This document shows positions 1,743 through 60,363 of a stretch of DNA of 64,000 nucleotides, in pieces (positions within the stretch are counted from its first letter, which is position 1; each line of letters opens with the position of its first letter). The notes under the pieces were generated by a model. The model worked only from the letters and a program-made list of their open reading frames with translations. It ran no database searches and was not told where the DNA came from. The position numbers were made by a program, and so were the translations under genes. Source of the DNA: an uncultured Clostridia bacterium (GTDB lineage: Bacteria > Bacillota > Clostridia > Oscillospirales > Ruminococcaceae); NCBI GenBank assembly GCA_947389015.1, contig CANDVA010000006.1:83726-147725 (forward strand), read 5' to 3'.

Positions 1743-2981
1743 TCACAGTCCGAAAAGCTGATTTTCAAATCGTTCTATTGCGTATTCCATCGCATCGAGA
1801 CTGTCAATGTTTGTCGTTCCGTTGTCGAGCCTTATGTCCTTGTTCGGCGAGCGCTCGTCCCAGACCGCGCTTTGTATCGCTTCGATCACGTGAGGGCAGT
1901 CCTCCGATACGAAAAAACGTCCCGCGGAAATCAGGCGGTTAAGCATATTTATCCGCGTGTTGATCGGCTTTTTCTTGGCGTTCAGCACCTCGGCGCGCAC
2001 CGCGCCGCGAAAGCTTTTTACAAGAAGCTGCTCCGCGCTGTCGCAATAGACCGCAGAGAGTCGAGGGAACCGCTCCGTTTCTCGCCCGACATATTCCGCA
2101 AAGCTGTTTATCAGGCACTCGGCGGAACGATTGCGTTTGTCGTAAAATTCCGACAACACATAAACGTTTCGGAATCCCTCGTCAAAGCCGACGTGAACGA
2201 ACGCCGAAGCGCTGCCGCTGCCGCCGTAGTCCACTCCTATAACGGAACGTATCAGCGGCTTTTCCGACAGCCTCTGCTCAAGCTCCCTTGACGTGAGAAC
2301 GCACGCGGAGGAGAAGTCCCCATATATTCTGCCCTCCGCCGCGACCCATTCGCCGAGAATGTATCGGTCGTAGAACACTCCGCAGAACTCCTTTTTAAGC
2401 GCCTCGACGTACTTTGACGGCAGGAATACGTTGTCGGTCAGCGTGAACTTCATAGACAGCAGATCAAGGCTTTTGTTGTCGAGATAATCCTTCTTTACCC
2501 AATGCGCGGGGCAGTCGGGATTGGTAGTCGCGAACAGCTTGGCACCGTCCTCCGAGAGCCTTGACAGCAGCATAGTGAAAAAATCCTCGCCGAAAAGCGT
2601 GAGCTCGTCGCAGTACGCACCCATTAACGTCATTCCGCGTATCTTGTTTTCGGACAGCGCGTTGGACGCTCCCTCGAGATAAATACGTCTGCCGAATAAC
2701 TGCCCATCCTTTTTCCCGAGGCTATAAGTAAAACCGCCTCCGAGCAGCTCGGAAAGCGGTTCGAGAACGTTTCTTTTCAGCGTCGCGAGCGTTTTCGCCG
2801 CCATAAGGTACGACCTTTCCTTCGGCGACCCCGCTACCCAGAACGCCCACAATATCATAGAAATGTAGGTCTTGCCGCTGCGCACGCTGCCCTCAAAAAT
2901 ATTTATTCGCCGCAGTCTGCCGCTTTTCAGCAGCAGGAGCGCTTCTGCCTGTTTCGGTGAAAACATCATATTTTTTATCAT
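1743..2981 (-). CDS. Orphan phage terminase large subunit (PBSX/SPP1 type)
   Basis: A 412-residue protein with an N-terminal packaging ATPase: Walker A EGSVRSGKT (Lys37), Walker B MGAYCDE (Asp125-Glu126) and coupling motif ATTNPDCPAHW. The C-terminal half has the RNase H-like nuclease pattern with VIGVDYGG and later VYCDSAEQ and DSLDAMEYAIE acidic residues. Both domains look complete and the length is normal for the family. It overlaps the upstream small gene by ATGA, as terminase S-L pairs do. No other head or tail genes lie beside it, and it is unrelated in sequence to the main prophage terminase at 53-54 kb, so it is a remnant of another phage or a retained packaging module. The family call is firm; its activity is unknown. 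Confidence 0.88.
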   Translation of the reverse strand: MIKNMMFSPKQAEALLLLKSGRLRRINIFEGSVRSGKTYISMILWAFWVAGSPKERSYLMAAKTLATLKRNVLEPLSELLGGGFTYSLGKKDGQLFGRRIYLEGASNALSENKIRGMTLMGAYCDELTLFGEDFFTMLLSRLSEDGAKLFATTNPDCPAHWVKKDYLDNKSLDLLSMKFTLTDNVFLPSKYVEALKKEFCGVFYDRYILGEWVAAEGRIYGDFSSACVLTSRELEQRLSEKPLIRSVIGVDYGGSGSASAFVHVGFDEGFRNVYVLSEFYDKRNRSAECLINSFAEYVGRETERFPRLSAVYCDSAEQLLVKSFRGAVRAEVLNAKKKPINTRINMLNRLISAGRFFVSEDCPHVIEAIQSAVWDERSPNKDIRLDNGTTNIDSLDAMEYAIERFENQLFGL

Positions 2982-3716: not shown

Positions 3717-5795
3717 ATGGAAAAATATCTTGACGAGACATTAAGCATACAGGAGCGCGCCGAAGCGCTCACCGACGCTATGACAACTGACGAGCAGGCA
3801 AGTCAGCTAAGGTACGACGCGCCCGCGGTAAAGCGGCTCGGCATACCCGCGTATAACTGGTGGAACGAGGGACTGCACGGGCTTGCGCGATCGGGAACTG
3901 CGACTATGTTCCCGCAGGCTGTGGGGCTTGCGGCGATGTTTTCGCCCGAGCTTGTCAAAAGGGCCGGTGAGATCACTGCCGAGGAGACCCGCGCGAAATA
4001 CAATGCCTATCAGAAGCACGGCGACCGCGATATTTACAAGGGCTTGACGCTGTGGGCACCAAACATCAATATTTTCCGCGACCCGCGCTGGGGAAGAGGT
4101 CACGAAACCTACGGCGAGGACCCGTTTCTTACCGCCGAAAACGGCAAGGCGTATGTCAAGGGGCTTCAGGGCAGCGGAGAGGTTCTGAAAACCGCTGCGT
4201 GCGCTAAACATTTTGCCGTTCACAGCGGTCCCGAAGCTATCCGCCATGAATTCAATGCCGAGGTCTCGTCCAAGGATATGGAGGAAACCTATCTTCCCGC
4301 GTTTGAAGAGCTCGTGAAAAACGCACGCGTCGAGGGCGTTATGGGTGCGTACAACTGCGTTAACGGAGAGCCTGCCTGCGCGAGCGGCTTCTTAATGAAC
4401 AAGCTCCGCAACTGGGGCTTTGACGGGTATTTCGTTTCGGATTGCTGGGCGATACGCGATTTTCACGAGCACCACAGGATCACAAGCAATGCCGTGGAGT
4501 CGGCAGCGCTCGCGCTGACAGCAGGCTGCGACGTGAACTGCGGCTGCACATATGTGAACGTCCTCGCGGCGCTGGACAAGGGGCAGATAACGAAAGAGCA
4601 TATCCGAAACGCCTGTGTTCACCTTATGAGAACGAGGATCAGACTTGGTATGTTCAACAAAAAAACGGAATATGATGATATCCCGTACAGCGTTGTATCG
4701 TGCCGTGAGCATAAAGACGTATCCCTTGAATGCGCCGAAAGATCTATGGTGCTGCTGCGCAACAACGGAATACTGCCGCTTGACGAAAAGAAGCTCGGAA
4801 CAATCGCGGTGATAGGACCGAACAGCATGAGCCGTGCGGCATTAGAGGGTAATTACTGCGGCACCGCGGACAGATATGTGACTTTCCTTGACGGTATTCA
4901 AGACCGATTTAAAGGGCGCGTCATTTTCGCCGAGGGGTGTCATCTTTATAAGGACAGAAGCTCGGGGCTCGCTATGGCGGGCGACCTGTACGCCGAAGCG
5001 GAAGCTGCAACCGAAAACTCCGACATTGTGATCCTTTGCGTGGGTCTCGACGCGACTATCGAGGGCGAAGAGGGCGACACGGGCAATGAGTTCTCATCGG
5101 GAGACAAGAACGATCTCCGGCTGCCCGAAAGTCAGCGCGTCCTTATCGACAGAATAATGAAGCTCGGCAAGCCCGTGATAATAGTCTGCGCCGCGGGTAG
5201 CTCGATAAACGTCGAATGTGAGCCCGACGCGCTGCTTCACGTTTGGTATCCCGGCTCGGAGGGCGGCACGGCGCTCGCGGAGATACTGTTCGGCGATGTC
5301 TCGCCCTCGGGAAAGCTTCCCGTTACCTTTTACGAGAGAGCGGAGCTGCTGCCCGAATTCACCGACTACTCAATGAAAAAACGCACCTACCGCTACGCCG
5401 AGAATAACGTGCTGTTCCCGTTCGGGTTCGGGCTGACATATTCGGATATTGTCTGCACGGATATAAAGTATAAGGACGGTCTCGCCGTCGTATGCGCGGA
5501 AAACAGGGGCGGAGCGACAACCGAGGACGTTATCGAGCTGTATATTAAGGATTACAATGAAAACGCCGTGCCAAACACAAGCCTGTGCGGTTTCAAACGG
5601 ATACGTCTCAATGCGGGAGAAAAGCTCTCCGTTGAGATAACCGTTCCCGAAAAAGCGTTCACCGCTGTTGATGAAAACGGCACAAGACAACGCTTCGGTA
5701 ACAAATTTACACTGTACGCGGGAACACATCAGCCCGATCTCATGAGCGAGAGGCTGAGCGGTAATAAATGTATAAGTGTGGAAATTTCCCTGTGA
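3717..5795 (+). CDS. Glycoside hydrolase family 3 beta-glycosidase (xylosidase/glucosidase type)
   Basis: A 692-residue enzyme. The start at 3717 (MEKYLDETLSIQERAEAL) follows GAAGGAGCGG; an upstream in-frame ATG at 3684 would overlap the promoter region. The order is GH3 N-terminal TIM barrel (about 10-290), GH3 C-terminal alpha/beta domain (about 335-560) and a fibronectin III-like domain (about 600-690). Family motifs are NWWNEGLHG, DPRWGRGHETYGEDP, AKHFAVHSGPE and YFVSDCWAI, where Asp242 is the predicted nucleophile. No signal peptide is visible, so it should act in the cytoplasm on imported xylo- or gluco-oligosaccharides. Substrate specificity cannot be fixed from sequence by eye. It is monocistronic with its own promoter and terminator. 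Confidence 0.93.
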   Translation: MEKYLDETLSIQERAEALTDAMTTDEQASQLRYDAPAVKRLGIPAYNWWNEGLHGLARSGTATMFPQAVGLAAMFSPELVKRAGEITAEETRAKYNAYQKHGDRDIYKGLTLWAPNINIFRDPRWGRGHETYGEDPFLTAENGKAYVKGLQGSGEVLKTAACAKHFAVHSGPEAIRHEFNAEVSSKDMEETYLPAFEELVKNARVEGVMGAYNCVNGEPACASGFLMNKLRNWGFDGYFVSDCWAIRDFHEHHRITSNAVESAALALTAGCDVNCGCTYVNVLAALDKGQITKEHIRNACVHLMRTRIRLGMFNKKTEYDDIPYSVVSCREHKDVSLECAERSMVLLRNNGILPLDEKKLGTIAVIGPNSMSRAALEGNYCGTADRYVTFLDGIQDRFKGRVIFAEGCHLYKDRSSGLAMAGDLYAEAEAATENSDIVILCVGLDATIEGEEGDTGNEFSSGDKNDLRLPESQRVLIDRIMKLGKPVIIVCAAGSSINVECEPDALLHVWYPGSEGGTALAEILFGDVSPSGKLPVTFYERAELLPEFTDYSMKKRTYRYAENNVLFPFGFGLTYSDIVCTDIKYKDGLAVVCAENRGGATTEDVIELYIKDYNENAVPNTSLCGFKRIRLNAGEKLSVEITVPEKAFTAVDENGTRQRFGNKFTLYAGTHQPDLMSERLSGNKCISVEISL

Positions 5796-5834
5796 TTTGG
5801 TTTCATCAAACTCCCATAAATGATACTATAGAAT

Positions 5835-5878
5835 GTTGCTGTTCCGTTAAATCAGCGGAACAGCAGCTAATTCTTTTT
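5835..5878 (+). terminator. Rho-independent terminator after GH3
   Basis: The stem GCTGTTCCG (5838-5846) pairs with CGGAACAGC (5856-5864) and can extend outward by three more pairs including a wobble, followed by a T-rich tail. The remaining 5880-6121 is AT-rich and holds only two copies of an AACATTGTAT 10-mer; I see no gene there. Confidence 0.75.
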
Positions 5879-6121
5879 GGTGTGAGAGCTCGTCGCCTTC
5901 CTTACCGAGAACATCTGCCGCTCAGCCGAATGCACGCCACACGCTCCGTTGTTATTCTAAACATTGTATCTTTCTGTGTTCGTTAGCAGAACATTGTATT
6001 CTAATCCGTTAGCGGAGTCTAATTCGGTCGATAATTGGAATTCTTTCAGCGGCTCTTATATCATAAATATTTTATATGAAACCACAATCACAATATTTTG
6101 CAAATTTTTTCAAAAAAACTA

Positions 6122-6150
6122 TTGACAAATCAATAAATATGTGATATAAT
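6122..6150 (+). promoter_or_regulatory. Consensus promoter of tRNA-Leu
   Basis: TTGACA (6122-6127), exactly 17 bases, TATAAT (6145-6150), 16 bases before the tRNA 5' end. It is the best sigma-A promoter in the window. Confidence 0.85.
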
Positions 6151-6166
6151 TATAAAGTCGTTAAAT

Positions 6167-6253
6167 GCGAGTGTGCTGGAATAGGCAGACAGGCTAGCTT
6201 GAGGTGCTAGTGGCAGTATTGCCGTGTGGGTTCAAGTCCCGTCACTCGCACCA
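6167..6253 (+). tRNA. tRNA-Leu (anticodon GAG)
   Basis: An 87-base class II tRNA with the acceptor stem GCGAGTG pairing CACTCGC and an encoded CCA (6251-6253). The anticodon stem CTAGC/GCTAG encloses the loop TTGAGGT, giving anticodon GAG. A long variable arm and the T-arm GGGTTCAAGTCCC follow. It lies just outside the left end of the prophage. Confidence 0.95.
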
Positions 6254-6263
6254 AACGGCGCAA

Positions 6264-6272
6264 ACTTGAACC
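6264..6272. other. Candidate attL of the prophage
   Basis: The 9-mer ACTTGAACC occurs here, between the tRNA-Leu and the first prophage terminator, and again at 57916-57924 at the 3' end of the integrase gene. Large serine integrases leave only a 2-3 bp common core inside partly similar flanks, so a short shared word at both ends is what would be expected. The prophage end must lie between 6254 and 6343 in any case. The exact site is inference. Confidence 0.35.
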
Positions 6273-6343
6273 ACCCGATGCAACTGTATTTCTTCAAAAA
6301 AGCAGTTGCCGTGGTGTTCAGATTTGCGAAAACAAGGTAAAAC

Positions 6344-6379
6344 AAAAAGCCCGCTTCGGACAACCGAGGCGGGCTTTTT
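6344..6379. terminator. Bidirectional terminator between tRNA-Leu and prophage late operon
   Basis: A 12-bp stem (6348-6359 with 6364-6375, one wobble), 4-base loop, flanked by AAAAA and TTTTT. It can stop the prophage late operon (minus strand, last gene ends at 6388) and the plus-strand tRNA transcript. Confidence 0.88.
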
Positions 6380-6387
6380 GCATTGTA

Positions 6388-6732
6388 TTACTTTTGTGCG
6401 TCGCTGATATATGCGGAGAGCTTCGGGTTCTTTTCCCACCGTTCCTTTGCGTCGGCAAGGACGCGCTCGGTCAGCTTTTCAAGCTGCGCCGCCGAAATGA
6501 ACAGCCGGATCACCGCCGGGATTTTCGGGTATAGCTGCTCAATGACCGCCGCCAGTTTCGCCGCGCCCGTGCCGCCGCCGTATTTCTTCTCGGCTTCGGT
6601 GACGAGGGAAAAGACGATTTTGTCAAGTATGGCGTACTGCTTTTTTGCTATCAGGATAATAAGCACAGCCACGAACAGCAGGACAACGAGAACGCTGTCC
6701 CAGTTTACAAGTAAAAAGTTCAAAATATCCAT
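6388..6732 (-). CDS. Phage holin, LLH-like
   Basis: A 114-residue protein with one N-terminal transmembrane helix (about residues 12-30, VLVVLLFVAVLIILIA) followed by a long charged amphipathic region and KLSAYISDAQK at the C-terminus. This fits the LL-H type phage holin family (one TM, C-terminal AIEALLP-like helix). It would form membrane lesions that release the endolysin encoded just upstream at 6748-8247. It is the last gene of the late operon, ending at the terminator. Confidence 0.75.
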   Translation of the reverse strand: MDILNFLLVNWDSVLVVLLFVAVLIILIAKKQYAILDKIVFSLVTEAEKKYGGGTGAAKLAAVIEQLYPKIPAVIRLFISAAQLEKLTERVLADAKERWEKNPKLSAYISDAQK

Positions 6733-6747
6733 TGTGTACCTCCTGCG

Positions 6748-8247
6748 TTAAATCAATTCATTGACTTTTTTCTGAACCTCGGAGTAGTTGTAGCCCGCTG
6801 CTTTAAGGCGGTTTTTCCTTTCAATGCCATTCCCCCACTTACCCGCGATTACTTCCAAAGCAATTTCCTCAATGGCTTTCTTTCCGCTTGATATATTCGC
6901 CGCGTCAACCCACCCATAAACGTCGCTTTTGCTGTCGATATGTACAACGTGGTAGGGGTGCGCCGTTCCCTCGGCAATTAACGTTATTTTCGCCTTGCCG
7001 GGCTTTGCTGCTGTTCCGCGAGTACCCGTGCTTGAGGCGTAATGTGTGCTGCCCGTAAAGTCAACGACATCGCCAACCTTGAACGCCGTGGACGCGGCGG
7101 GCTTGCTTGTCGCTGTGGTTTCCTTGATCTGAACGGGCGGCAAAATAAAGCCCTGAAGCTTATACGCGCCAAAGTTATAACCCGCGCTTTTCTTATAAGT
7201 CTGCGTGTAAAAGCGTGTGCCGCCGTATGCGCTGTTTGAGGTCACGATGTCGCCGTTTGCTTCGATACGTTCCACGACCGCAACGTGTCCCGCGCCGTCC
7301 GCTTCGTTGCCGACCGCGCCCTTGCTCCAACAAGCAACCGCACCGAGGGCGGGAGTGCTTGACCGCTTGTAGCCGTCGGCGGTGTTTCCGTACCACATTT
7401 CGGCGTTACACTTGCTTAATGCGGGCTTTTCGCCGGTGATCTCGTAAAAACGCCCCCACGCATACCCCACGCAGTTTGGCAGACAAGAGCCGCCGCTTAT
7501 GTGTATGCACTCGTTTAAGCCGCCTTTTGAAGTATGCCGCCAGTATTTGTTCGTCGTGTCGGGCGCAGTGAGGCGGGGCGTAAAGCTGACGGTCTTTTGG
7601 GGTTGAGAACCTGCTGAAACAAGACCGCGCTCCCTGCGCCATTCGTTGATGCGCGCGGGGTAGTCGATAAAGCACAGATCGCCGTCAACGTCCATATTGC
7701 CGACCTTGCCGACGCCCCACTGCCACATTTTCTGCCCGTAATTATAGCGGGACTTCTGCGCCGGGTTCTCCGTCCAGTGCGCTAACCATATATCGTGGTT
7801 ACGCATTACGCGCTCTTTGTCGAGAGCGTTTTCCATAAAGTTTGGATTGACATACAAGCCGGTAAAAATCCCCGCGCGGTTCAGCCTTACCTTGAACTCG
7901 TCGGCCATATTGGTAAGTGCCATTTTGCCGACATTGAGGTGCTTTTGTTCCTCAATATCGTAAAATACGGGGTACGACAGTTCATTCTGCAGCTGATATT
8001 TTTTAATTACCGCTACGCAGGCATCCGCCTCCTTTTGAGTTTCGGTCATATTGTAAGCGTAGGAATACCAATACAGACCGAAAGGGATGCCGACCTTTCG
8101 CAACCCGTCAATATGCGTTTTCAGCAGCTTGTCCTCGGTTTCGGAAAATCCCGCGCGGACGATGGCGAATTTCACGCCGTCCGCTTTCAGTTTGTTATAG
8201 TCGATGCCCGCCTGACAATATGAAATGTCAACGCCTTTTATTTCCAT
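6748..8247 (-). CDS. Modular endolysin: GH25 muramidase, CHAP, SH3-like, Cpl-7
   Basis: A 499-residue lysis enzyme with four modules. Residues 1-200 are a GH25 lysozyme domain with GVDIS (Asp7) and the catalytic FYDIEE motif (Asp97, Glu99). Residues about 245-370 are a CHAP amidase/peptidase domain with the nucleophile in NCVGYAWGR (Cys259) and GHVAVVER (His321). Residues about 388-452 are SH3-like and 461-499 are a Cpl-7 wall-binding repeat (IAGKWGNGIERKNRLKAAGY). It would cut both the glycan and the peptide parts of peptidoglycan at the end of the lytic cycle. No signal peptide is seen, consistent with holin-dependent export. The same Cpl-7 module ends the baseplate hub protein at 17174-18217. 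Confidence 0.92.
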   Translation of the reverse strand: MEIKGVDISYCQAGIDYNKLKADGVKFAIVRAGFSETEDKLLKTHIDGLRKVGIPFGLYWYSYAYNMTETQKEADACVAVIKKYQLQNELSYPVFYDIEEQKHLNVGKMALTNMADEFKVRLNRAGIFTGLYVNPNFMENALDKERVMRNHDIWLAHWTENPAQKSRYNYGQKMWQWGVGKVGNMDVDGDLCFIDYPARINEWRRERGLVSAGSQPQKTVSFTPRLTAPDTTNKYWRHTSKGGLNECIHISGGSCLPNCVGYAWGRFYEITGEKPALSKCNAEMWYGNTADGYKRSSTPALGAVACWSKGAVGNEADGAGHVAVVERIEANGDIVTSNSAYGGTRFYTQTYKKSAGYNFGAYKLQGFILPPVQIKETTATSKPAASTAFKVGDVVDFTGSTHYASSTGTRGTAAKPGKAKITLIAEGTAHPYHVVHIDSKSDVYGWVDAANISSGKKAIEEIALEVIAGKWGNGIERKNRLKAAGYNYSEVQKKVNELI

Positions 8248-8962: not shown

Positions 8963-10075
8963 TTATTGTTTTGGCGGTTCACGCCGTAAAACGAACCACC
9001 CCTCCACCGTGCCGCCCTCGGTACTGCCGCCAAAAATTTTAAAGGTCAGCCGGTAACTGTCGCAGTGCTTGAGCATACCGTTGTAGGAGGCAAGCGACAT
9101 TTTGACCTCCGGCCAGTCCACAGCACCCGCCGCGTAGTCCTTTTGAAGTTTTCGGAGTCGGCGGCGCATTTTCAAAGCGGTAGGTTTACGGAGCATTATG
9201 TGGCTGTCCCATATTCTGTACCCGCAAAAGTCTATGCCGAGCGTAAGCGGACGAATAACCGTTTTATTGTTCAGGTCAAGTTTTAGCCTTTCATTCAGAA
9301 AAGTCTCTATTTTGTGACGGTATTCGTGCAGCTGCTGTTTATCGCCACTTAATATAACCATATCGTCCATATAGCGGACATAGCAGTGCGCCCGCAGTTC
9401 CCGCTTTATGTACTGATCCACGTCGTTAAGGTACAGATTGGCGAACATTTGGCTTGTAAGGTTTCCGATCGGCATACCAACGCCGAAAATGCGCTCCGCT
9501 TCTCCGGGGCTTGCACCTGCGGGAAGTCCGAAAGGTACGGCTGACCGAACGGTGCGCTCCAACAGATCAAGCAGTTCACGGTCGGCAAACCATTTACGGA
9601 GCATTTCCATAAGCACATCGTGGTTTATGCGGTAAAAGTATTTGCTTATATCCAGTTTAAGCGCATACCCGCCGCCGTTGTTTTGGTGTGTCACGAGCTG
9701 CGCAAAATACCGGATGCGTTTTGCGGCGGCGTGAATGCCCCGCCCCTCGATGCAGGCGTAGCCGTCCTCAATGTACTTTTTGGCAAATAGCGGGTTTACT
9801 ATTCTGTAAACAGCCCATTGCGCTACTCTGTCACGAAAGGGCAGAGCCATAATCAGCCGCTTTTTGGGTTCATATACGTAAAATTCGTGATACCTGCCGA
9901 CCGCATAAGTGCCTTGCTGTAAATCTCTTTGCAGGTCAAACAGGCTCGCCTCTAAATTATCAGAAAAAGCAAGCACTTCTTTTCTGAAACGCTTGCCCTT
10001 TGCCGCTGCCCGATAAGCCGCGTAAAGGTTTTCAAAAGAGGTGATCTGTTCCCATAATCCTTTTATCGGCTTCAT
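8963..10075 (-). CDS. Reverse transcriptase of the diversity-generating retroelement
   Basis: A 370-residue RT with fingers-palm motifs in order: YALKLDISKYF (first catalytic Asp142), GMPIGNLTSQMFANLYL (residues 200-216) and the catalytic YVRYMDDMVIL (YMDD at 235-238). The thumb follows, with NNKT and GIDFCGYRIW. The IGxxxSQ form of motif 4 (IGNLTSQ), in place of the QGxxxSP of group II intron and retroviral RTs, is a hallmark of DGR RTs. Length and lack of maturase, RNase H and endonuclease domains fit as well. It copies the adjacent template RNA with errors at adenines to make mutagenised cDNA. It sits downstream of TR and avd on the same strand, in BPP-1-like order. Confidence 0.96.
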   Translation of the reverse strand: MKPIKGLWEQITSFENLYAAYRAAAKGKRFRKEVLAFSDNLEASLFDLQRDLQQGTYAVGRYHEFYVYEPKKRLIMALPFRDRVAQWAVYRIVNPLFAKKYIEDGYACIEGRGIHAAAKRIRYFAQLVTHQNNGGGYALKLDISKYFYRINHDVLMEMLRKWFADRELLDLLERTVRSAVPFGLPAGASPGEAERIFGVGMPIGNLTSQMFANLYLNDVDQYIKRELRAHCYVRYMDDMVILSGDKQQLHEYRHKIETFLNERLKLDLNNKTVIRPLTLGIDFCGYRIWDSHIMLRKPTALKMRRRLRKLQKDYAAGAVDWPEVKMSLASYNGMLKHCDSYRLTFKIFGGSTEGGTVEGWFVLRREPPKQ

Positions 10076-10280
10076 CGGACGCTCCTTTCAAATTTGCCGC
10101 ACTTGACGGATTTCGGCTTTAACCGCCTACTTTCGGCTTCGCGGCGGTTTTTATTTTTCGCCCGCACAACTGCCCCGCCACTATTGCGGCGAGGCGTCGA
10201 ACGCCGGCGCGGAGGTAAGCTCCTTTTTCTTCCCGTACTGAAAGCACACCCCGTAGGTATACAATATCTGACTGCGAGAG
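10076..10280 (-). ncRNA. DGR spacer between TR and RT gene
   Basis: 205 bases without a gene. In studied DGRs the TR transcript continues into this spacer, where it folds and primes cDNA synthesis. On the minus strand this one can fold: a 7-bp GC-rich stem pairs 10121-10127 with 10143-10149, and further GC-rich complementarity lies around 10175-10215. A role as the 3' part of the DGR RNA is inferred from BPP-1; the RNA ends cannot be seen. Confidence 0.5.
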
Positions 10281-10392
10281 AAAGCGGCGCGGAAACCGAT
10301 GTTCGTGTTGACGTTCGACCGCGCATTATTGAGGTACAACGCGAACACACCCGCAGATGCGGCATTGTTCCAGTTGCCACCACGGATCGGTA
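10281..10392 (-). repeat. DGR template repeat (TR)
   Basis: A 112-bp non-coding repeat, read on the minus strand, near-identical to VR1 (10876-10987) and VR2 (35454-35565). It holds 22 adenines, most of them in AAC or AAT codon positions when read in the VR frame (conceptual peptide GGNWNNAASAGVF then ALYLNNARSNVNTNIGFRAAF). VR1 differs from it at 13 positions, 12 of them TR adenines; VR2 differs at 13, all TR adenines. Homology stops exactly at TACC on one side and GCCGCTTT on the other. It lies between avd and the RT gene, the usual place of the template. Confidence 0.96.
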
Positions 10393-10428
10393 TACAGCTT
10401 GCCCCCGAAACAAAAGCGATTTGTAAAT

Positions 10429-10800
10429 TTATCGCTTGTTTTGCATCGGATTTTCAGCGGTATATTTTATCCAACCGCCGAGCATTCTGCCGATCTCGTC
10501 CGTCATTCTTGAAAGAATTTCGTACTTTTTCGGCGGCAAAAAGCCCAGTTCGTGCGACAACCGCAGGTAGTGGCGCAGCTTTTCAAGTTCTACGTCCATT
10601 TCCTGCAATGTGGTCTTTTTGTGGTACTGCTTGCTTGCCTCTATCGCTTTTTCCATTACGGAGTCCATACACCGTTTTATATCGACGACGATTGCGAATT
10701 TCTCACTTTTCGGAAATTGCGCCAAAGCGGGGTATGCGTACTTTGCCATATCGTGGAGTTTTGTCAAAATGGTAAGCTGTGTATAGTCGCTCACGGTCAT
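10429..10800 (-). CDS. avd: Avd, accessory variability determinant of the DGR
   Basis: A 123-residue, basic, all-helical protein (MTVSDYTQLTILTKLHDMAK). Helices fall at about 5-25, 32-60, 65-88 and 93-118, with FPKSEKFAIVVDIKRCMDSVM and LRHYLRLSHELGFLPPKKYE, the pattern of the four-helix-bundle Avd/S23 family. In BPP-1, Avd forms a positively charged pentamer that binds the RT and the DGR RNA and is essential for retrohoming. It sits between the VR1 hairpin and TR. An AAAGGAGA site directly precedes the ATG with unusually short spacing. Confidence 0.9.
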   Translation of the reverse strand: MTVSDYTQLTILTKLHDMAKYAYPALAQFPKSEKFAIVVDIKRCMDSVMEKAIEASKQYHKKTTLQEMDVELEKLRHYLRLSHELGFLPPKKYEILSRMTDEIGRMLGGWIKYTAENPMQNKR

Positions 10801-10813
10801 TCTCCTTTATTAA

Positions 10814-10845
10814 GACCCTCACCCGCCTTTCGGCGGGTGAGGGTC
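10814..10845 (-). other. DGR target hairpin downstream of VR1
   Basis: A perfect inverted repeat: a 14-bp stem (10814-10827 with 10832-10845) and a 4-base loop that reads GAAA on the target-gene strand. In BPP-1 a GC-rich DNA hairpin with a GRNA-type tetraloop just after VR is needed for efficient retrohoming. Position (31 bases after VR1) and loop match. It has no T tract, so it is not a typical terminator. Confidence 0.85.
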
Positions 10846-10862
10846 AAGAAACAAGTTACAAG

Positions 10863-11879
10863 TTACAGGGGACAAAAAGCGGCGCGGAAACCGATGCGCG
10901 CGTGGACGTCCGACCGCGCATCCGTGAGGGACAACGCGAACACACCCGCAGATGCGGCACCGTTCCAGCCGCCACCACGGATCGGTAATCTTTCGCCGGT
11001 GATGTTCGCCCACACCGCATCGTCGCCGTAGTCGGCAGAGGCTGCGCCTGCGTGGGGTATCAATCCGAGGGACTCCAACAGGGTAATGCCCGCGCCGGTT
11101 GCGGCGGGAGTGGTGACAATGCTTGAAAATTTTGTGTCGCTCAAAGACGTGCCATATTTCAGCGTTCCCGCCGTGCCGGGCGCAACCAGTGTGCCATCGG
11201 GCTTGATCGCTCTCCAGAGGGTACTTGTCGGGGTGAGGGGGTTGTTCCAGTCGGCGGCGTCGTTATTCGGGATGATCTGAATTTCACCGTCCACCAAACG
11301 CAGACCGCCGTTCCATTCCCACACGTTGCCGTTCAGGTCGGCAATGCCTGCGGCGGTGTTGTCGTGATACCAAGAGGCGGGACCGCTGCCGGTTGCCGTG
11401 CGCAAAATTCGTCCGTTAGTATCGTAGTAAGAACCCTGCGCTCTCTGCGGCAGCGCGCCCTCGGTGCTGTCCTTTCCGTAATTGTTATTACCTTTCGGCA
11501 TAAAGCCGTTTTTCTTGCACCAAAGAGCGACCGCCGCAAACTCTGCGTTCGTCATTAAATGCCAACCGGGGCCTTTCCGCTTGCAATACTGCCACGCCTG
11601 ATCGAAATTCAGCGAGGCGGCGGGGTCTTGCATCGGTAAGCTGTACGCCCTGCCGTTGTTTACAACATTCTGATACTTGCTAATGTAGATGCAGTCCAAT
11701 TCTTTGCCGTTGACGATAAAAGCGGGGTGCGTACCGTCCCCGCCGCCCTCGATCACGTCCCCGATCTTAATTTTCGGAATGCGTACCATTACGGACGGAT
11801 CGCCGAGGTCGTCATACATAAGCACGTTATTAGGCGCGGCAATTTGCAAAGCAAGGTTCGTTAAATCATAATTAGGCAT
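10863..11879 (-). CDS. DGR target protein 1, C-type-lectin/FGE-sulfatase fold, tail-associated
   Basis: A 338-residue protein. The middle and C-terminal parts have the formylglycine-generating-enzyme/C-type lectin fold seen in DGR variable proteins (KGPGWHLMTNAEFAAVALW, then GIADLNGNVWEWNGGLRL). The last about 40 residues hold the variable region (residues 298-335: GGGWNGAASAGVFALS, then LTDARSDVHARIGFRAAF), where nine residues differ from the TR-coded peptide. The fold displays variable residues on a surface that binds a ligand or receptor. The N-terminal 60 residues probably attach it to the tail. It is the last gene of the tail-fibre section, so it is the likely receptor-binding tip. It is homologous throughout to the second target at 34640-35578. 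Confidence 0.93.
   Translation of the reverse strand: MPNYDLTNLALQIAAPNNVLMYDDLGDPSVMVRIPKIKIGDVIEGGGDGTHPAFIVNGKELDCIYISKYQNVVNNGRAYSLPMQDPAASLNFDQAWQYCKRKGPGWHLMTNAEFAAVALWCKKNGFMPKGNNNYGKDSTEGALPQRAQGSYYDTNGRILRTATGSGPASWYHDNTAAGIADLNGNVWEWNGGLRLVDGEIQIIPNNDAADWNNPLTPTSTLWRAIKPDGTLVAPGTAGTLKYGTSLSDTKFSSIVTTPAATGAGITLLESLGLIPHAGAASADYGDDAVWANITGERLPIRGGGWNGAASAGVFALSLTDARSDVHARIGFRAAFCPL
10876..10987 (-). repeat. DGR variable repeat VR1
   Basis: 112 bp aligned without gaps to TR. There are 13 differences: 12 at TR adenines (to G, C), and one T-to-G inside an AAT codon that became ACG. All other positions, including the 3' GC-rich end ATCGGTTTCCGCGCCGCTTT that acts as the initiation-of-homing region in the family, are identical. 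It lies at the 3' end of target gene 1. Confidence 0.95.
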
Positions 11880-33055: not shown

Positions 33056-33619
33056 TTATTTTCCCTCGTATTGTTTCACACGGCGGTAGAACGTCGGAGC
33101 GGTCAGGTTCAACGCCTTTTGCATTGCAACGGCGGTGATCTTCCCGGACTTCCATTCGGCGTACAGCCGCGCGAATTTATCACGGTCAACATCGATCGGT
33201 TTTCTGCCCTTGTACTTCCCGGCTTTCTTTGCCTCCCGTATGCCCTCGGCTTGACGTTCAAGCGTACTTTCGCGCTCGAATTGATACAGCCCCGCAAAGA
33301 TAGTCAGCATAAGCCTACCGGCAGGGGTGCAGGTGTCGATCGCTTCTTTCTTGCTGATAAACTCCACGCCTTTACTTTTCAGCGTTTCCACTATGTCAAG
33401 CAGATCGCGCGTGGAGCGGGCAAGCCGCGAATAGCTTTCCACTATCACGGTATCGCCGACGCGCACGAATTGGAGCATATTTTGAAGCTCCTTTCGGGCA
33501 GTGTTCTTGCCGCTTGCCTTATCAATAAAAATCTTGTCAACCCCTAATTCCCGCATCAGGACTTCCTGCCGGATCGTGTTCTGCTCCTCCGTCGAAACCC
33601 GCACATAACCAACTTTCAT
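33056..33619 (-). CDS. Small serine recombinase (resolvase/invertase family)
   Basis: The start at ATG 33619 (MKVGYVRVSTEEQNTIRQ) is 9 bases after AAAGGAGG; 187 residues. The catalytic domain has YVRVS (Ser9), DTVIVESYSRLARSTRDLLD, and FAGLYQFERESTLERQAEGI. The C-terminal helix-turn-helix is DKFARLYAEWKSGKITAVAM and following. Length and layout match Hin/Tn3 resolvase-type enzymes that act on paired short sites. The prophage has a separate large integrase, so this one may resolve dimers or invert DNA; its sites are not identified. It has its own strong promoter (33642-33671) and terminator. Confidence 0.92.
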   Translation of the reverse strand: MKVGYVRVSTEEQNTIRQEVLMRELGVDKIFIDKASGKNTARKELQNMLQFVRVGDTVIVESYSRLARSTRDLLDIVETLKSKGVEFISKKEAIDTCTPAGRLMLTIFAGLYQFERESTLERQAEGIREAKKAGKYKGRKPIDVDRDKFARLYAEWKSGKITAVAMQKALNLTAPTFYRRVKQYEGK

Positions 33620-33641
33620 AAGCCGCGCCTCCTTTTGCTCC

Positions 33642-34639: not shown

Positions 34640-35578
34640 ATGAACACAGTGTTAGTACGCGACCAAAACGGCAACGTTGACGTAATGGAGCGCATTCCTA
34701 AATTTAAGCTGTCGGACGTTATCGACGGCGCAAGCGATGCCGTACACCCGGCGTTTATCGTTGGTGGGAAAGAGGTTGATGAAATCTATGTGAGCAAGTA
34801 CCTGAACAGCATCCACAACCGCCTCCCGTACAGCTTGCCCTATCAGAAAGCGGCAACGTCCATAAGCTACACCGATGCGGTTAGAGCCTGTGCCTTAAAG
34901 GGCAAAGGGTGGCACTTGATGTCGAACGCAGAATGGGCGGCGATCGCCCTTTGGAGTAAGAAAAACGGCACACTGCCCCACGGTAACACTTGTCGGGGAG
35001 CATATCACGCAGAACCTAACGAGCGCGGTATGACTTACGACGATTATTTCACCCTTACCGGCAGCGGCCCCAAAACGTGGGCGCACGATCACACCGAGGA
35101 CGGTATTTTCGACCTCTGCGGCAATGTTTGGGAGTGGGTGTCCGGTTTACGTATCAAGGACAGCGTTATACAGACAATCGCAAATAATGACGTTGCGCTG
35201 AATGTGGATCAGTCGATAAACAGCGCGGCGTGGCAGGATATGATCGACCCCTCAAGCGGTAAGAGCATTAAATTCACCTGCGGCGATGAAAATGTAGGAT
35301 TTACGATCGGCGAGGCAGAGCGTGACTGGAACGGTGTAGACTGGAAAGACATTTACACTGACTTTGAGATCACCGAACAAATGAAAGCCCTCGCATTATT
35401 CCCCGGTGAACCGGATGCCCTTTTCTACGCTGACAGCACCGAGGGCGAGTATGTACCGGTCCGTGGTGGCAACTGGACCGATGCCGCTTCTGCGGGTGTG
35501 TTCGCGTTGTCCCTCGATAATGCGCGGTCGCTCGTCGGCTCGTGCATCGGTTTCCGCGCCGCTTTTTGTCCCCTGTAA
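34640..35578 (+). CDS. DGR target protein 2 (remote), C-type-lectin/FGE fold
   Basis: A 312-residue homologue of target 1 (shared HPAFIVGGKEVDEIYVSKYL, KGKGWHLMSNAEWAAIALW, FDLCGNVWEWVSGLRIKD). The C-terminal residues 272-309 are VR2 (GGNWTDAASAGVFALS, LDNARSLVGSCIGFRAAF). It has no signal peptide or TM segment and no C-terminal anchor. It is on the opposite strand to the DGR core, about 24 kb away, and inside the early/replication operon, not the tail operon. It ends CPL just like target 1. So a diversified protein expressed early or from the lysogen is possible. GAGG site directly before the ATG. Confidence 0.93.
   Translation: MNTVLVRDQNGNVDVMERIPKFKLSDVIDGASDAVHPAFIVGGKEVDEIYVSKYLNSIHNRLPYSLPYQKAATSISYTDAVRACALKGKGWHLMSNAEWAAIALWSKKNGTLPHGNTCRGAYHAEPNERGMTYDDYFTLTGSGPKTWAHDHTEDGIFDLCGNVWEWVSGLRIKDSVIQTIANNDVALNVDQSINSAAWQDMIDPSSGKSIKFTCGDENVGFTIGEAERDWNGVDWKDIYTDFEITEQMKALALFPGEPDALFYADSTEGEYVPVRGGNWTDAASAGVFALSLDNARSLVGSCIGFRAAFCPL
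35454..35565 (+). repeat. DGR variable repeat VR2
   Basis: 112 bp aligned without gaps to TR (10281-10392, minus strand). It differs at 13 positions, every one a TR adenine (to G, C or T). One change is silent (GCA to GCT) and one lies outside the variable codons (ATC to GTC). All 90 non-adenine positions are identical. Homology with VR1 continues about 38 bases past the stop codon. Confidence 0.95.
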
Positions 35579-35604
35579 CTTGACCCTTGTTTCTTGACCC
35601 TTGT

Positions 35605-35627
35605 CTGTGCGGCTTTACGCCGTGCGG
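35605..35627 (+). other. Weaker hairpin downstream of VR2
   Basis: A 9-bp stem (35605-35613 with 35619-35627; three G-U type pairs) and a 5-base loop, 40 bases after VR2. It sits at the place of the perfect VR1 hairpin but is imperfect, and the VR1 loop GAAA is not conserved. The rest of 35579-35657 is leader for the next gene. Confidence 0.45.
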
Positions 35628-35657: not shown

Positions 35658-36209
35658 ATGTACGAAATCACGATCAAAGGCAATACTCCGGCGGAACTTT
35701 TCGCCAACCTTGCACAGATGGCGGCGGCTAATGCGAACACCGCACCTGCGGCAGTTCCCCAAATGCCCGCAACCCCTGCAAGCCCCGCACCCACAGCGGT
35801 AAACCCTACGGCGGCGCAGGTCCCCGTTGCAGTTCCTGCGGCAGCCGCGACTGTTCCGAGTGCTGCGCCTGCCCCTGTTTCCCCGGCAAATTCTAACCTT
35901 GCGCCCGCTCCTGCACCTGTTGCGCCTGCGCCTGTGGCAGCACCCGCACCCACTGCGCCTGCACCTGCGGCAGCTCCCGCACCCGTTGCGCCTGCACCCA
36001 CAGCAGCCCCTGCCGCTGTACCTACCGTCGCCCCTACTTATACGCTTGATGCGCTTGCTCGTGCGGGTGCTGCTCTTGCGCAGGCGGGTAAGATGCAGGA
36101 GGCTCTTGCCCTGCTTGCAAAGTACGGCGTACAGACTGTAAATCAGTTAAAGCCTGAACAGTACGGCGCATTTGCTACGGAGTTGCGCGCGCTCGGCGCA
36201 CAGATATAG
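35658..36209 (+). CDS. Phage protein with long Pro/Ala linker
   Basis: A 183-residue protein. Residues 1-28 (MYEITIKGNTPAELFANLAQ) and 130-183 (TLDALARAGAALAQAGKMQE and LLAKYGVQTVNQLKPEQYGA) look folded; residues 29-128 are almost only Ala, Pro and Val. The C-terminal part resembles short helical regions of phage proteins next to ssDNA-binding genes. Probably two binding ends joined by an extended arm in the replication complex (inference). Confidence 0.75.
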   Translation: MYEITIKGNTPAELFANLAQMAAANANTAPAAVPQMPATPASPAPTAVNPTAAQVPVAVPAAAATVPSAAPAPVSPANSNLAPAPAPVAPAPVAAPAPTAPAPAAAPAPVAPAPTAAPAAVPTVAPTYTLDALARAGAALAQAGKMQEALALLAKYGVQTVNQLKPEQYGAFATELRALGAQI

Positions 36210-36210
36210 G

Positions 36211-37452
36211 ATGGCGGCTATGGAACACGCTTTGTTGTCTGCGTCCTCTGCAAGCAGGTGGTTGACGTGTACTGCGTCACCCCGCTTTGAGGCGCAGTTC
36301 CCCGAAACCACGTCCGAATATGCCGAGGAGGGCAGACTGGCGCACTCGTTTTGCGAGTTAAAGGTCTTGAAAAAGTTCACCACCTCGATCAAACCGAGCG
36401 CATACAAGACCCGGCTTAGTAAGCTGAAAAAAGAGCCTTTGTACACTGACGAAATGGATCAGACAAGCGATCTCTATGTTGAACACCTTACCGAAAAGGC
36501 GATGGGCTACGACAGTACCCCGCTTGTCAACGCCGAGGTCAGGGTCGATTTTTCGGAATATGTACCCGATGGCTTTGGCACGTGTGACTGCATTATGATC
36601 GGCGGTGATCTGCTTGACATTACAGACTATAAGCACGGAAAGGGCGTCCCCGTATCAGCGGAGGGCAACCCCCAAATGCGGCTTTACGCCCTCGGTGCGC
36701 TGAAAAAGTACGAGCCTTTTTACGGCGGTATGATAAAGCGGGTGCGTATGACGATCGACCAACCCCGCATACAGTCCGAACTGTCAAGCGAAACAATCAC
36801 GGTTGACGAGTTGAAAGCGTGGGGCGAAACAATCAAGCCGATCGCACAAATGGCATTTAGCGGCTTTGGTGAATTTAAGCCCGGCGATCACTGCCGTTTC
36901 TGTCGTGGGAAAGCACAGTGCCGCGCCCGCGCCGATGTCAATACCGCCCTTGAGGATTTTAAGGACTGCCTGCTGCCGACAGCAAAGAACATTGAACAGG
37001 CACAGCAGAACGCCGGGACAGATGCCCCCGCAATGCTTACCAATGACGAGATCGGCGAGCTGCTTGTTCGCGGTCAGCACCTTGTACAGTGGTATAACGA
37101 CCTTGAGGAATATGCGCTCAATGCCTTGCTGAACGGCGAGGAAATAGCGGGATGGAAGGTCGTTGCGGGTCGCAGTAACAGAACATTCAGCGATCAGGAA
37201 GCCGCCCTCGCCGCCGTTATCGCCGCAGGCTATGATGAGTCGCTTGTTTATGAACGCAAACCGAAAACCCTCACGGGGCTTGAGGAATTGATGGGCAAGA
37301 AAGACTTTGCGGAAAAGATCGGACAGTTTGTTGTAAAGCCGCTTGGTAAGCCTACGCTTGCCCCGATGTCGGACAAGCGCGAACCGTACAGCACCGCCGC
37401 CGCTGATTTTTCGGGAGCGGCGCAGGGGGAACAGCCGGGGGCGTCCTCGTAA
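36211..37452 (+). CDS. DUF2800 family PD-(D/E)XK nuclease-like protein
   Basis: The start is ATG 36211 or 36220 (MEHALLSASSASRWLTCTAS); a frame from 36172 overlaps the previous gene. It has the DUF2800 N-terminal ASSASRW motif, VRVDFSEYVPDGFGTCDCIM, and the nuclease core DITDYKHGKGVPVSAEGNPQ plus MRLYALGAL. Cys residues at HCRFCRGKAQCRARA near residue 230 suggest a Cys cluster as in AddB/Cas4-like nucleases. It probably takes part in phage recombination with the DUF2815 protein two genes on. Confidence 0.87.
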   Translation: MAAMEHALLSASSASRWLTCTASPRFEAQFPETTSEYAEEGRLAHSFCELKVLKKFTTSIKPSAYKTRLSKLKKEPLYTDEMDQTSDLYVEHLTEKAMGYDSTPLVNAEVRVDFSEYVPDGFGTCDCIMIGGDLLDITDYKHGKGVPVSAEGNPQMRLYALGALKKYEPFYGGMIKRVRMTIDQPRIQSELSSETITVDELKAWGETIKPIAQMAFSGFGEFKPGDHCRFCRGKAQCRARADVNTALEDFKDCLLPTAKNIEQAQQNAGTDAPAMLTNDEIGELLVRGQHLVQWYNDLEEYALNALLNGEEIAGWKVVAGRSNRTFSDQEAALAAVIAAGYDESLVYERKPKTLTGLEELMGKKDFAEKIGQFVVKPLGKPTLAPMSDKREPYSTAAADFSGAAQGEQPGASS

Positions 37453-37868
37453 TGCCGGAAAGGGTTTTAATTCAGTACGATGCTTGCCGAATGGTGTTAT
37501 ACCTGCCCGCATTCTTTGACGGCAGCTCGTTGGCAAATATCCGCAAAGCGTTCAAGCTGTTGAGCGAACGCCCCCACCAAAATGCGCCTGCATTTGAAAC
37601 ATTCGACCGCTTTTTCCCTGCGTGGGAACAGTACCTCAAGCAGCAGCTTGAAAGCGACACGCAGGAAAAGAAAGAGGCAGAACAGACTGCGAGGGCGACA
37701 GAAAGTCAAGTCGCTTGCTTTGGCACTATGGCAACAAAGGAAATGAAAGACAAGTTGCAAAAGGCACAAAGCAAATTGAAGAAAGCCGCCCTCAAGGTAA
37801 AACGTGCAAAATCCGCTTTAGAGCGTTGCGGCAAAATCAAAAACGCTTACAACGAAATTTTAAGGTAA
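37452..37868 (+). CDS. Coiled-coil phage replication-region protein
   Basis: A 138-residue protein. Residues 1-60 look folded (VLIQYDACRMVLYLPAFFDG); residues 65-138 are a Lys/Glu/Ala-rich coiled coil (KDKLQKAQSKLKKAALKVKR). It overlaps the end of the DUF2800 gene and precedes the ssDNA-binding protein. No family recognised. Confidence 0.65.
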   Translation: MPERVLIQYDACRMVLYLPAFFDGSSLANIRKAFKLLSERPHQNAPAFETFDRFFPAWEQYLKQQLESDTQEKKEAEQTARATESQVACFGTMATKEMKDKLQKAQSKLKKAALKVKRAKSALERCGKIKNAYNEILR

Positions 37869-37887
37869 TAAAGGAGATTTAAGGACT

Positions 37888-38637
37888 ATGTATCAGAATG
37901 ACGCATTGAAAGTTTTAACCGGCGAGGTTCGCTTGTCGTATGTGAATGTAATCACACCTCGCGCCTCACAGCAGGGCGGTGAGCCTAAATACTCGGTAAC
38001 GCTGCTTATTCCTAAAAGCGACTACGCAACAAAAGCGGACATTGACTCCGCTATTCAGGCGGCAATGCAGGAAGCAGTCGGCAAAGTGTGGGGCGGCGTT
38101 CGTCCCCCGCAGCCCCGCATCCCTATTTGGGACGGTGACGGCGTTCGTCAATCGGGCGTTCCTTTCGGTGAGGAATGCAAGGGTCACTGGGTAATCACGG
38201 CATCCACCAAAATGAAACCGCAGGTCGTTGGTATGGATAACATAAACGCCGAACTCGCCCCCTCCGACATTTACAGCGGTATGTATGGGCGTGTAACAAT
38301 TCGCTTTTTCGGTTATTCCAACAGCGGCAACAAGGGCGTAGGTTGCGGACTCGGTAACATTATGAAAACCCGTGACGGTGAGCCTTTGGCGGGTAATGCC
38401 TCGGCAGCCTCCGACTTTGCAACGGTTGGAAATGCGATCGTACAGCCGCAGAACACCGCCGCCCCCGCTTATCAGCAGCCCGCCGCAGCTCCTGCATATC
38501 AGCAGACAGCCGCACCCGCTCCCAATTATCAGCAAGCCGCCGCGCCTGCTCCTGTTTATCAGCAACCCACCGCCCCCGCATATCAGGCGCAACAGCAGAC
38601 CGGCGAAATTAACCCTTTCACGGGCTTACCGTTTTAA
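37888..38637 (+). CDS. DUF2815 ssDNA-binding protein
   Basis: A 249-residue protein (MYQNDALKVLTGEVRLSYVN). The folded part (1-175) has EPKYSVTLLIPKSD, WDGDGVRQSGVPFGEECKGH and GMYGRVTIRFFGYSNSGNKG, typical of DUF2815, an SSB-like family in phage replication modules. Residues 180-235 are tandem YQQ-A-PAP repeats, a flexible linker as in SSBs, ending in INPFTGLPF, which may recruit partners as SSB tails do (inference). Confidence 0.87.
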   Translation: MYQNDALKVLTGEVRLSYVNVITPRASQQGGEPKYSVTLLIPKSDYATKADIDSAIQAAMQEAVGKVWGGVRPPQPRIPIWDGDGVRQSGVPFGEECKGHWVITASTKMKPQVVGMDNINAELAPSDIYSGMYGRVTIRFFGYSNSGNKGVGCGLGNIMKTRDGEPLAGNASAASDFATVGNAIVQPQNTAAPAYQQPAAAPAYQQTAAPAPNYQQAAAPAPVYQQPTAPAYQAQQQTGEINPFTGLPF

Positions 38638-38649
38638 GGAGGGGCAAAT

Positions 38650-40629
38650 ATGGCTCACCATTTGAGTATTGACCTTGAAACTTATTCAAGTGTTGATCTT
38701 AAAAAGTCGGGAATGTTCAAATACATTGAAAGTCCCGATTATCAAATATTGCTTTTTGCCTATTCGATCGATGGAGAGCTTGTGCAGGTGATCGACCTCG
38801 CCACGGGGGAGCAAATTCCTCCGTGGTTGACGGCGGCACTGCGCGATCCCGAATTTATCAAACACGCATATAACGCGGCGTTTGAATGGGGCGGGCTTTC
38901 AAAGTATTTCGGTACGCTGCCTGTCGATCAATGGCGTTGCACAATGTTTCACGGTCTTTACTGCGGCTATACCGCAGGACTTGAGGCGACCGGCAAGGCG
39001 TTAGGGCTTGCCGCCGACAAGCAGAAGCTGAACAGCGGCAAAGCACTGATCCGTTATTTCTGCGTACCGTGCCGACCGACGAAAACCAACGGCGGCAGAA
39101 CGCGAAACCTCCCGCACCACGATCCCGAAAAATGGGCGTTGTTTAAGGAATACAACCGTCGGGACGTTGAAACCGAGATGGAAATCGAACGGCGGCTCTC
39201 GGCGTTTCCCGTCCCCGATTTTGTACAAAAGGAGTGGGAAACCGACCTGCGGATCAATGCGCGCGGCGTTATGGTGGATATGAACCTCGTATCGGGCGCG
39301 CTTACTATGGGCGCAAATACCCGCGCCGCTCTTATCGACGAAGCGGAAAGAATTTCGGGACTGCGTAACCCTAACAGCGTGAAGCAGCTGCGGGAATGGC
39401 TCGGCAAGGAGCTTGATGAGAAAGTGACGAACCTCAACAAGGAAACCGTGGCGCACCTGCTGAACCGTGACGACAACAGCGACGCCGTTCAGCGTATGCT
39501 TGAAATACGGCAGGAACTTGGAAAAACCTCGACAAAGAAGTATGACGCAATCGAGGCAGCGGTGTGTTCCGATGGGCGCGTGAGAGGGCTTTTACAGTTC
39601 TACGGCGCAAACCGTACCGGCAGATGGGCGGGACGGTTGGTGCAGGTGCAAAACCTGCCGCGAACGTACACCGAGCCGCTATCCTTTGCCCGTGAGTTGG
39701 TGATAAACAATCAACCCGATGCCCTGCGCCTTGTATGCGGCAGTATACCGGACACGCTTTCGCAGCTTATACGCACCTCGTTCACATCCTCCCCCGGCAA
39801 CCTTTTGGTGGACGCCGACTTTTCGGCGATCGAGGCGAGGGTTATTTCGTGGCTTGCAGGCGAACAGTGGCGGCTTGACGTATTCCGCACACACGGCAAA
39901 ATTTACGAGGCGTCGGCATCTCAAATGTTCGGCGTTCCGATCGAGAAAATCAAGAAAGGCAGCCCCGAATATGCGCTCCGGCAAAAGGGAAAGGTTGCGG
40001 AGTTGGCGTTGGGCTATCAGGGCAGCACCGGCGCGCTTATCAAAATGGGCGCATTCGATATGGGGCTGACCGAGGAGGAACTTCCCGACATCGTGACCCG
40101 TTGGCGTGAGGCGAACCGCCGTATCCGCGATCTGTGGTACACAATGGAAAACGCAGCCGTGCGGGTTATTTCCGAGGGCGGCAGTGTTGGCGTGGGGTGC
40201 GTTCTGCTGTCCCGTGAGTACGACCAAAACACGGGCGCGGACTGTATGACGATCCTCTTACCGTCCGGGCGCAAGCTGTATTATATCAGCCCAAAACTCG
40301 GTGTAAATAAGTGGGACAAGCCCTCGATCGTTTATATGGGGTTGAACGACAAGAACAAGTGGAACGAAATTGAAACCTACGGCGGCAAACTCGTGGAGAA
40401 CTGCGTTCAGGCGATCGCCCGTGACTGTTTGGCGTGTTCTATTGAACGATTAGAGGCGGCAGGAATGCCGGTCGTGTTCCACGTTCACGATGAGGTTGTT
40501 ATTGATATACCCGCCGATCGTGCCGATCTTGACGCGGTGGTGCAGATTATGCGCGCACCGATACCGTGGGCGGCCGACCTGCCGCTTAATGCGGACGGGT
40601 GGACGGGACTATTTTTCAGAAAGGATTAA
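38650..40629 (+). CDS. Phage family A DNA polymerase
   Basis: A 659-residue protein starting MAHHLSIDLETYSSVDLKKS. The 3'-5' exonuclease domain has the DLETY motif and NRRDVETEMEI. The polymerase domain has motif A VDADFSAIEARVISWLAGE, motif B RQKGKVAELALGYQG and motif C VFHVHDEVVIDIP. Short for PolA, no 5'-3' exonuclease, as in phage polymerases. It should replicate the phage genome with the VapE primase-helicase at 47.7 kb. Confidence 0.93.
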   Translation: MAHHLSIDLETYSSVDLKKSGMFKYIESPDYQILLFAYSIDGELVQVIDLATGEQIPPWLTAALRDPEFIKHAYNAAFEWGGLSKYFGTLPVDQWRCTMFHGLYCGYTAGLEATGKALGLAADKQKLNSGKALIRYFCVPCRPTKTNGGRTRNLPHHDPEKWALFKEYNRRDVETEMEIERRLSAFPVPDFVQKEWETDLRINARGVMVDMNLVSGALTMGANTRAALIDEAERISGLRNPNSVKQLREWLGKELDEKVTNLNKETVAHLLNRDDNSDAVQRMLEIRQELGKTSTKKYDAIEAAVCSDGRVRGLLQFYGANRTGRWAGRLVQVQNLPRTYTEPLSFARELVINNQPDALRLVCGSIPDTLSQLIRTSFTSSPGNLLVDADFSAIEARVISWLAGEQWRLDVFRTHGKIYEASASQMFGVPIEKIKKGSPEYALRQKGKVAELALGYQGSTGALIKMGAFDMGLTEEELPDIVTRWREANRRIRDLWYTMENAAVRVISEGGSVGVGCVLLSREYDQNTGADCMTILLPSGRKLYYISPKLGVNKWDKPSIVYMGLNDKNKWNEIETYGGKLVENCVQAIARDCLACSIERLEAAGMPVVFHVHDEVVIDIPADRADLDAVVQIMRAPIPWAADLPLNADGWTGLFFRKD

Positions 40630-40637
40630 GGCGCAGT

Positions 40638-42027: not shown

Positions 42028-42040
42028 GAGGTTACAAACA

Positions 42041-60362: not shown

Positions 60363-60363
60363 T

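Follow-up and report, generated by a model that had tools for sequence, protein, structure and literature searches.

A prophage diversity-generating retroelement with one template and two target genes, the second of a recurrent distal lineage

The retroelement and its two target genes

The stretch of DNA analyzed here, hereafter the window (64,000 nucleotides from an uncultured Clostridia bacterium of the Ruminococcaceae; assembly GCA_947389015.1, contig CANDVA010000006.1, positions 83,726 to 147,725), contains a myovirus-type prophage with a complete diversity-generating retroelement (DGR), the template repeat (TR) of which corresponds to variable repeats (VRs) in two genes, T1 and T2. The cassette lies on the minus strand in the order T1 with VR1, hairpin, avd, TR, spacer, and reverse transcriptase (RT), at the tail end of the late operon, as the first-pass annotation had described it. 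T1 (10863..11879) encodes 338 aa with an FGE/C-type lectin fold and an N-terminal leader helix, and contains the 111-bp VR1 (10876..10986); 3' of VR1 is a hairpin with a 14-bp stem and a GAAA loop (10814..10845). The remaining parts are avd (10429..10800), the 112-bp TR (10280..10391), recognized by alignment to VR1 and VR2, a TR-RT spacer defined by its coordinates (10076..10279), and the RT gene (8963..10075). Tail sheath, baseplate, and portal PHROGs upstream of the cassette support the assignment to a sheath-bearing, myovirus-type prophage.

The RT carries the motifs YMDD and IGNLTSQ, matches Pfam RVT_1 and PHROG 1423, and is the single match to its own sequence as a query in the genome. 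In a tree in which the tool flags four long branches, it falls in a 20-row clade (support, 98/96) that includes Brt of Bordetella phage BPP-1, with the YADD-type RTs outside, so that the phylogenetic check proposed in the first-pass annotation came out in favor of a DGR enzyme. Avd matches Pfam bAvd and NCBIfam DivGenRetAVD NF033474 (117.7 bits; cut-off, 80). The thirteen differences that had been counted between TR and VR1, twelve of them at TR adenines, stand when scored over 111 bp (22 adenines in TR; binomial p = 4e-8). The sole non-adenine difference is a T>G next to two adenine changes, and further differences, C>T and then C>G, lie immediately 3' of the alignment. Adenine occupies position 1 or 2 in 12 TR codons, giving 6.6e11 potential protein variants.

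The earlier picture of a single target was mistaken. A search of the 2.9-Mb genome (49 contigs) with TR at E <= 0.001 returned three matches: TR, VR1, and VR2, a 111-bp repeat (35455..35565) at the 3' end of T2 on the plus strand. T2 (34640..35578) encodes 312 aa, also with an FGE/C-type lectin fold, and has no leader helix. VR2 differs from TR at 13 of 111 bp, all of them adenines (p = 7e-10), and 15 of the 16 sites that distinguish VR1 from VR2 are TR adenines. A 39-bp stretch at 35544..35582, comprising the VR 3' end and a shared flank past the stop codon that resembles an initiation of mutagenic homing (IMH) sequence, recurs without a mismatch, in inverted orientation, at 10859-10897. T2 lies 24.6 kb from the RT, on the strand opposite to T1, near an excisionase-like gene and recombination genes; the adjoining early genes (36172..40629, plus strand) encode an exonuclease, a single-stranded-DNA-annealing protein, and a DNA polymerase.

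AlphaFold2 models of T1 and T2 have pLDDT values of 91.5 and 87.1, respectively. For either protein, profile and fold comparisons rank TaqVP (PDB 5vf4; E = 2e-37 for T1 and 3e-29 for T2) first among solved structures, with Mtd variants at about 1e-3, in agreement with the fold first proposed for T1.

The variable repeats also differ among natural relatives, which were compared as listed proteins, outside their genome context, and not as reads. For T1, the 8 closest relatives tested differed at 9 to 11 of the 12 TR-adenine codons and at 0 to 2 of the 26 other VR codons, a protein-level answer to the suggestion that VR1 variation be confined to TR adenines. For the 14 closest T2 relatives tested, the corresponding ranges were 7 to 11 of 12 and 0 to 4 of 26. 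The closest relative of T2 among the matches listed (P0001, 96% identical) differs from it at 11/12 TR-adenine codons, 0/26 other VR codons, and 3/274 sites outside the VR, indicating a recent change of VR2 in this lineage.

Recurrence and lineage of the distal targets

Two such target genes also occur in Dulem virus 37 and in Faecalibacterium phage FP_Lagaffe, and six further genome records combine an RT with a T2, counting one (G060) in which RT and T2 are on different contigs. A further 22 virus records had T2-like hits, ten with an RT and twelve without, many of these being fragments. In all, 33 records with T2-like hits were searched for an RT (11 + 22), and 16 had one; among the RT records, G209 has a weak RT-adjacent target and not a distal one. 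No RT was found in 17 of the 33, of which many are short. Since two of these span 46 and 40 kb, T2-type genes without an RT may exist. A search of 200 relatives with T2 gave 8 matches, with the distal type confined to the genome of the window and G060. The closest RT among the same relatives (69% identical) belongs to a member of the same genus (G015; L303, G015:C1), where it serves a local target; the G015 genome gave no distal-type hit.

In all 18 records with an RT and a distal T2, the window included, mismatches from TR to VR2 fall mainly at TR adenines (221/244; per record, from 9/15 in G225 to 14/14), a count for which the best high-scoring segment pair of at least 70 bp was picked by adenine share, which favors TR; the picked sites adjoin the RT. 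TR itself adjoins the RT in each of the 18 records, which include near kin (G216 with G217, and G211 with G221). RT and T2 share one contig in 17 of them, 4 to 39 kb apart, and are on the same strand in 16 of these 17, the window alone having them opposed. The distal gene adjoins an exonuclease gene in Lagaffe and lies between a methyltransferase and the integrase in Dulem virus 37. An apparent similarity between the genes preceding T2 in the window and in Dulem virus 37 spans only 18 residues and was dismissed.

One two-target element (G201; L292, 15607-16737) has an RT broken by an in-frame TGA, and its TR-VR2 differences are 12/12 at adenines. In G201 the T2 reading frame extends upstream, uninterrupted by a stop codon, across a nucleoside-deoxyribosyltransferase-like stretch; we gave no weight to a domain fusion, for which the Pfam matches were below the cut-off and which is also countered by the ribosome-binding site of T2 itself and by a matching database entry of 312 aa (P0084).

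A tree of 36 targets, built with the leader and the VR left out, separates 19 RT-adjacent from 17 distal targets by one branch (support, 100/99) that was recovered in 200/200 bootstrap trees; its rows were selected manually among the available ones, and distal queries had been the source of several of the distal rows. It follows from the separation of the two groups that a phage's distal gene did not arise by recent duplication of the tail protein of that same phage. The N termini differ as well. Of 94 RT-adjacent targets of at least 250 aa and at least 120 bits with a local score at or above the distal score, 3 were dropped for poor start signals; 87 of the 91 scorable ones, among which many loci are near-copies, have 16 to 25 residues before the first strand, and the other 4 have 54 to 158. 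L037 and L173, both weak RT-adjacent targets for which T2 gives the higher score, fall below the bit limit of this count. None of 18 distal targets has a leader of 16 to 25 residues: 10 have 2 to 8 residues before the first strand, 7 have an unrelated domain of 66 to 73 residues, and the start of the remaining one (G200) is ambiguous, with a close relative (P0058) that starts without a leader. T2 belongs to the distal lineage on both counts, grouping with other distal targets and having no leader. In the models, the T1 leader forms a helix at residues 4-14, its first ten residues having a pLDDT of 68, and T2 begins with a strand at 2-7. From the distribution of the leader we infer that it may serve to dock T1 on the tail. 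A Rosetta-stone link between the N-terminal domain of the seven distal targets and the protein encoded directly downstream of T2 (35658-36209) was considered and found no support (hhalign probability, 0.3). In the literature that we searched, with subscription journals largely outside reach, no description was found of distal targets as a lineage or of the missing leader.

Related systems, homing signals, and surroundings

Phage BPP-1 (mtd-avd-TR-brt) has the same gene order and minus-strand late position as the DGR of the window, and its Brt is 35% identical to the window RT over 339 aa. The likeness extends to the early genes bbp38, bbp40, bbp42, and bbp47, which resemble the window polymerase, exonuclease, annealing protein, and helicase. 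The BPP-1 TR, however, matches only mtd, and there is no T2-type target at the early site. The region annotated as VR2 in bbp36 was considered as TR-derived and rejected, having no similarity to TR. The bbp36 gene (L388, 32776-33705) is variable through tandem GTATAGYR-like repeats and lies upstream of the exonuclease gene, in the place that T2 has in the window prophage.

Further parallels come from gut phages. FP_Lagaffe and its relatives have, like the window, a local FGE-type target beside avd-TR-RT and a distal one, and in the VR2 of FP_Lagaffe 11/11 TR mismatches are at adenines. The Lagaffe distal gene differs from T2 in lying on the same strand at a distance of 7 kb, in having a C-terminal extension, and in being followed by an exonuclease gene. 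That Lagaffe has a second variable region, and that both regions of Lagaffe_CP vary among relatives, has been published (PMC11792537). Faecalibacterium phages with two variable regions appear in PMC11792537 and PMC5883640, the accessible parts of which do not treat the distal gene as a separate lineage. Quimbyvirus (PMC8008677) is reported to have two variable repeats, one of which is in the opposite orientation and away from the structural module, and its authors suggest that the second target is a non-structural protein in a defense-related island. The VR2 of the window is likewise distal, on the opposite strand, and outside the structural module, a likeness in the arrangement as described; Quimbyvirus differs in being a Bacteroides phage with its RT in three overlapping frames. 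The phages nd4 and nd12 (tentaclin-type; PMC10743442) resemble the window in having one TR and two C-type lectin targets, but their second target is, as described there, of a different protein family with its VR at the 5' end. TaqVP differs from both T1 and T2 in being the single variable protein of a Thermus aquaticus prophage DGR (PMC6328139).

Phage DGR hairpins with GRNA loops have been described (PMC3240598). The GAAA loop after VR1 fits this pattern, whereas a strict finder detected no canonical GRNA-loop hairpin after VR2, where a weak, non-canonical one (35607..35625, plus strand) has 7 pairs, two of them G-T, and the 5-nt loop TTTAC; the energies are -20.5 after VR1 and -6.6 after VR2. 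A GRNA-loop hairpin follows 6 of 7 T1s, that of the window included, and 5 of 8 T2s (Dulem, G200, G201, G202, and G203), two of them identical to the hairpin of their own T1. The T2s of Lagaffe and G060 share with the window the lack of a canonical hairpin after VR2. DGR editing has been found to depend on the orientation of the target relative to replication, by up to 44-fold at one locus, and it has been suggested that a single DGR might act on more than one target, each at its own rate of diversification (PMC12875486). GC skew and gene strand gave no signal of the replication direction of the host contig.

When the two halves of the prophage were compared, the longest inverted repeats found were VR1, VR2, and TR (39 bp exact between VR1 and VR2), which could permit a 24.7-kb inversion. 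A small serine recombinase gene matching a DNA-invertase PHROG (33056-33643, minus strand) has the portal gene on one side and the T2 operon on the other, and is preceded by two near-consensus promoter-like sites at 33671-33642 and 33849-33821 (12 and 11 of 12). The early operon includes a phosphoadenosine-phosphosulfate-reductase-like gene (40599-41363, plus strand; PHROG 424), and several matches to DNA-methyltransferase PHROGs follow at 41305-46919 (plus strand), among which 45110-46264 and 46254-46919 correspond to consecutive portions of PHROG 116, as might be expected of a single enzyme divided between two overlapping frames. To the left of a tRNA-Leu gene, and outside the operons described, a protein that looks terminase-like by eye (1743-2981, minus strand) is possibly the remnant of another phage. 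A search for attachment sites yielded no direct repeat of at least 12 bp between 5700-6760 and 55950-64000.

Possible roles of the second target

We consider it probable that one DGR with one template supplies two recipients here, T1 likely being a tail receptor-binding protein and T2 likely an early, cytoplasmic binding protein that is not part of the virion. In this model, RT and Avd would copy the TR transcript and miscopy its adenines, a step known from BPP-1, and the resulting cDNA would take the place of VR1 or VR2, guided by a homing signal that, as in BPP-1, would reside in their common 3' end. The leader helix, absent from T2, would dock T1 on the tail. A variable lectin surface would thus be used twice, outside the cell for receptors and inside the cell for a changing factor of the host or of a rival phage, where T2 might act in counter-defense or exclusion. 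The phage retargeting first proposed for T1 is plausible by analogy with BPP-1, we infer that homing is active in the window prophage, and the non-virion role of T2 is likely given its place, lineage, and missing leader.

Several observations weigh against this reading. PHROG 5302, labelled a tail protein, matches both T2 (52 bits) and T1 (60 bits), and PHROG 2889 is common to the two. PADLOC gave no match for T2, and the T2 loci compared do not all have any one partner gene in common. The N-terminal domain of seven of the 18 distal targets could itself dock, and homing to VR2 in the window prophage may, to judge from the weak hairpin after it, be poor.

It is accordingly possible, although we think it rather improbable, that T2 is a second receptor-binding protein of the virion, attached by another contact, and that both targets widen or tune adsorption. 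Its T1-like fold, TaqVP as the best match of both proteins, the tail-labelled PHROG, and the proposal of two different tail-type targets for other gut phages (PMC10743442) would all fit such a role; the position of T2 in the early region, on the strand opposite the late operon, its separate lineage, and the absence of the leader found in RT-adjacent targets argue against it. A soluble decoy freed at lysis, binding receptors on debris or on rival cells, would suit a lectin fold with a variable surface and a 312-aa protein in which inspection by eye shows neither a signal sequence nor a membrane segment (no predictor was run), but the early-region position suggests early rather than lysis-time expression, and we regard this role as unlikely.

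The weak, non-canonical hairpin after VR2, without a GRNA loop, implies that VR2 may be homed to less often in the window prophage, and at the extreme T2 could be a former target that is no longer homed to, with VR2 a relic. The differences between T2 and P0001, at 11/12 TR-adenine codons and 3/274 sites outside the VR, speak against this, as do the T2s of Lagaffe and G060, which likewise lack a canonical hairpin, both Lagaffe_CP regions being reported as variable (PMC11792537); a relic, too, is in our view doubtful. That the DGR is an ordinary single-target one, with the match to VR2 due to chance or misassembly, borders on the inconceivable: the contig may stem from a metagenome bin (49 contigs), but 111 bp with adenine-only differences inside an intact gene (p = 7e-10) are poorly explained in this way, and the like arrangement in 17 other records refutes it.

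Two-target phage DGRs have already been published, as in Lagaffe and Quimbyvirus; what the present comparison adds is that T2 represents a recurrent lineage of distal targets. A bolder and quite tentative proposal is that temperate phages maintain the leaderless early lectins as a second, dedicated class of DGR target of ancient origin, never on the virion and sharing a template with the tail protein; during infection or lysogeny, these lectins would act within the cell much as antibodies do, as adaptive binders directed against host defenses or rival phages; the opposite orientation of the targets seen here would let replication direction separate their mutation rates. With T1 and T2 opposed, the window prophage in any case offers a natural pair on which the reported dependence of DGR editing on replication direction could be tested directly (PMC12875486). 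If many phage DGRs also serve an early lectin that has no leader and belongs to a separate lineage, surveys confined to the neighborhood of the RT overlook distal targets, as PMC8144416 states that its own scan would, and some of the diversity generated by elements usually read as host-range switches would serve ends other than adsorption.

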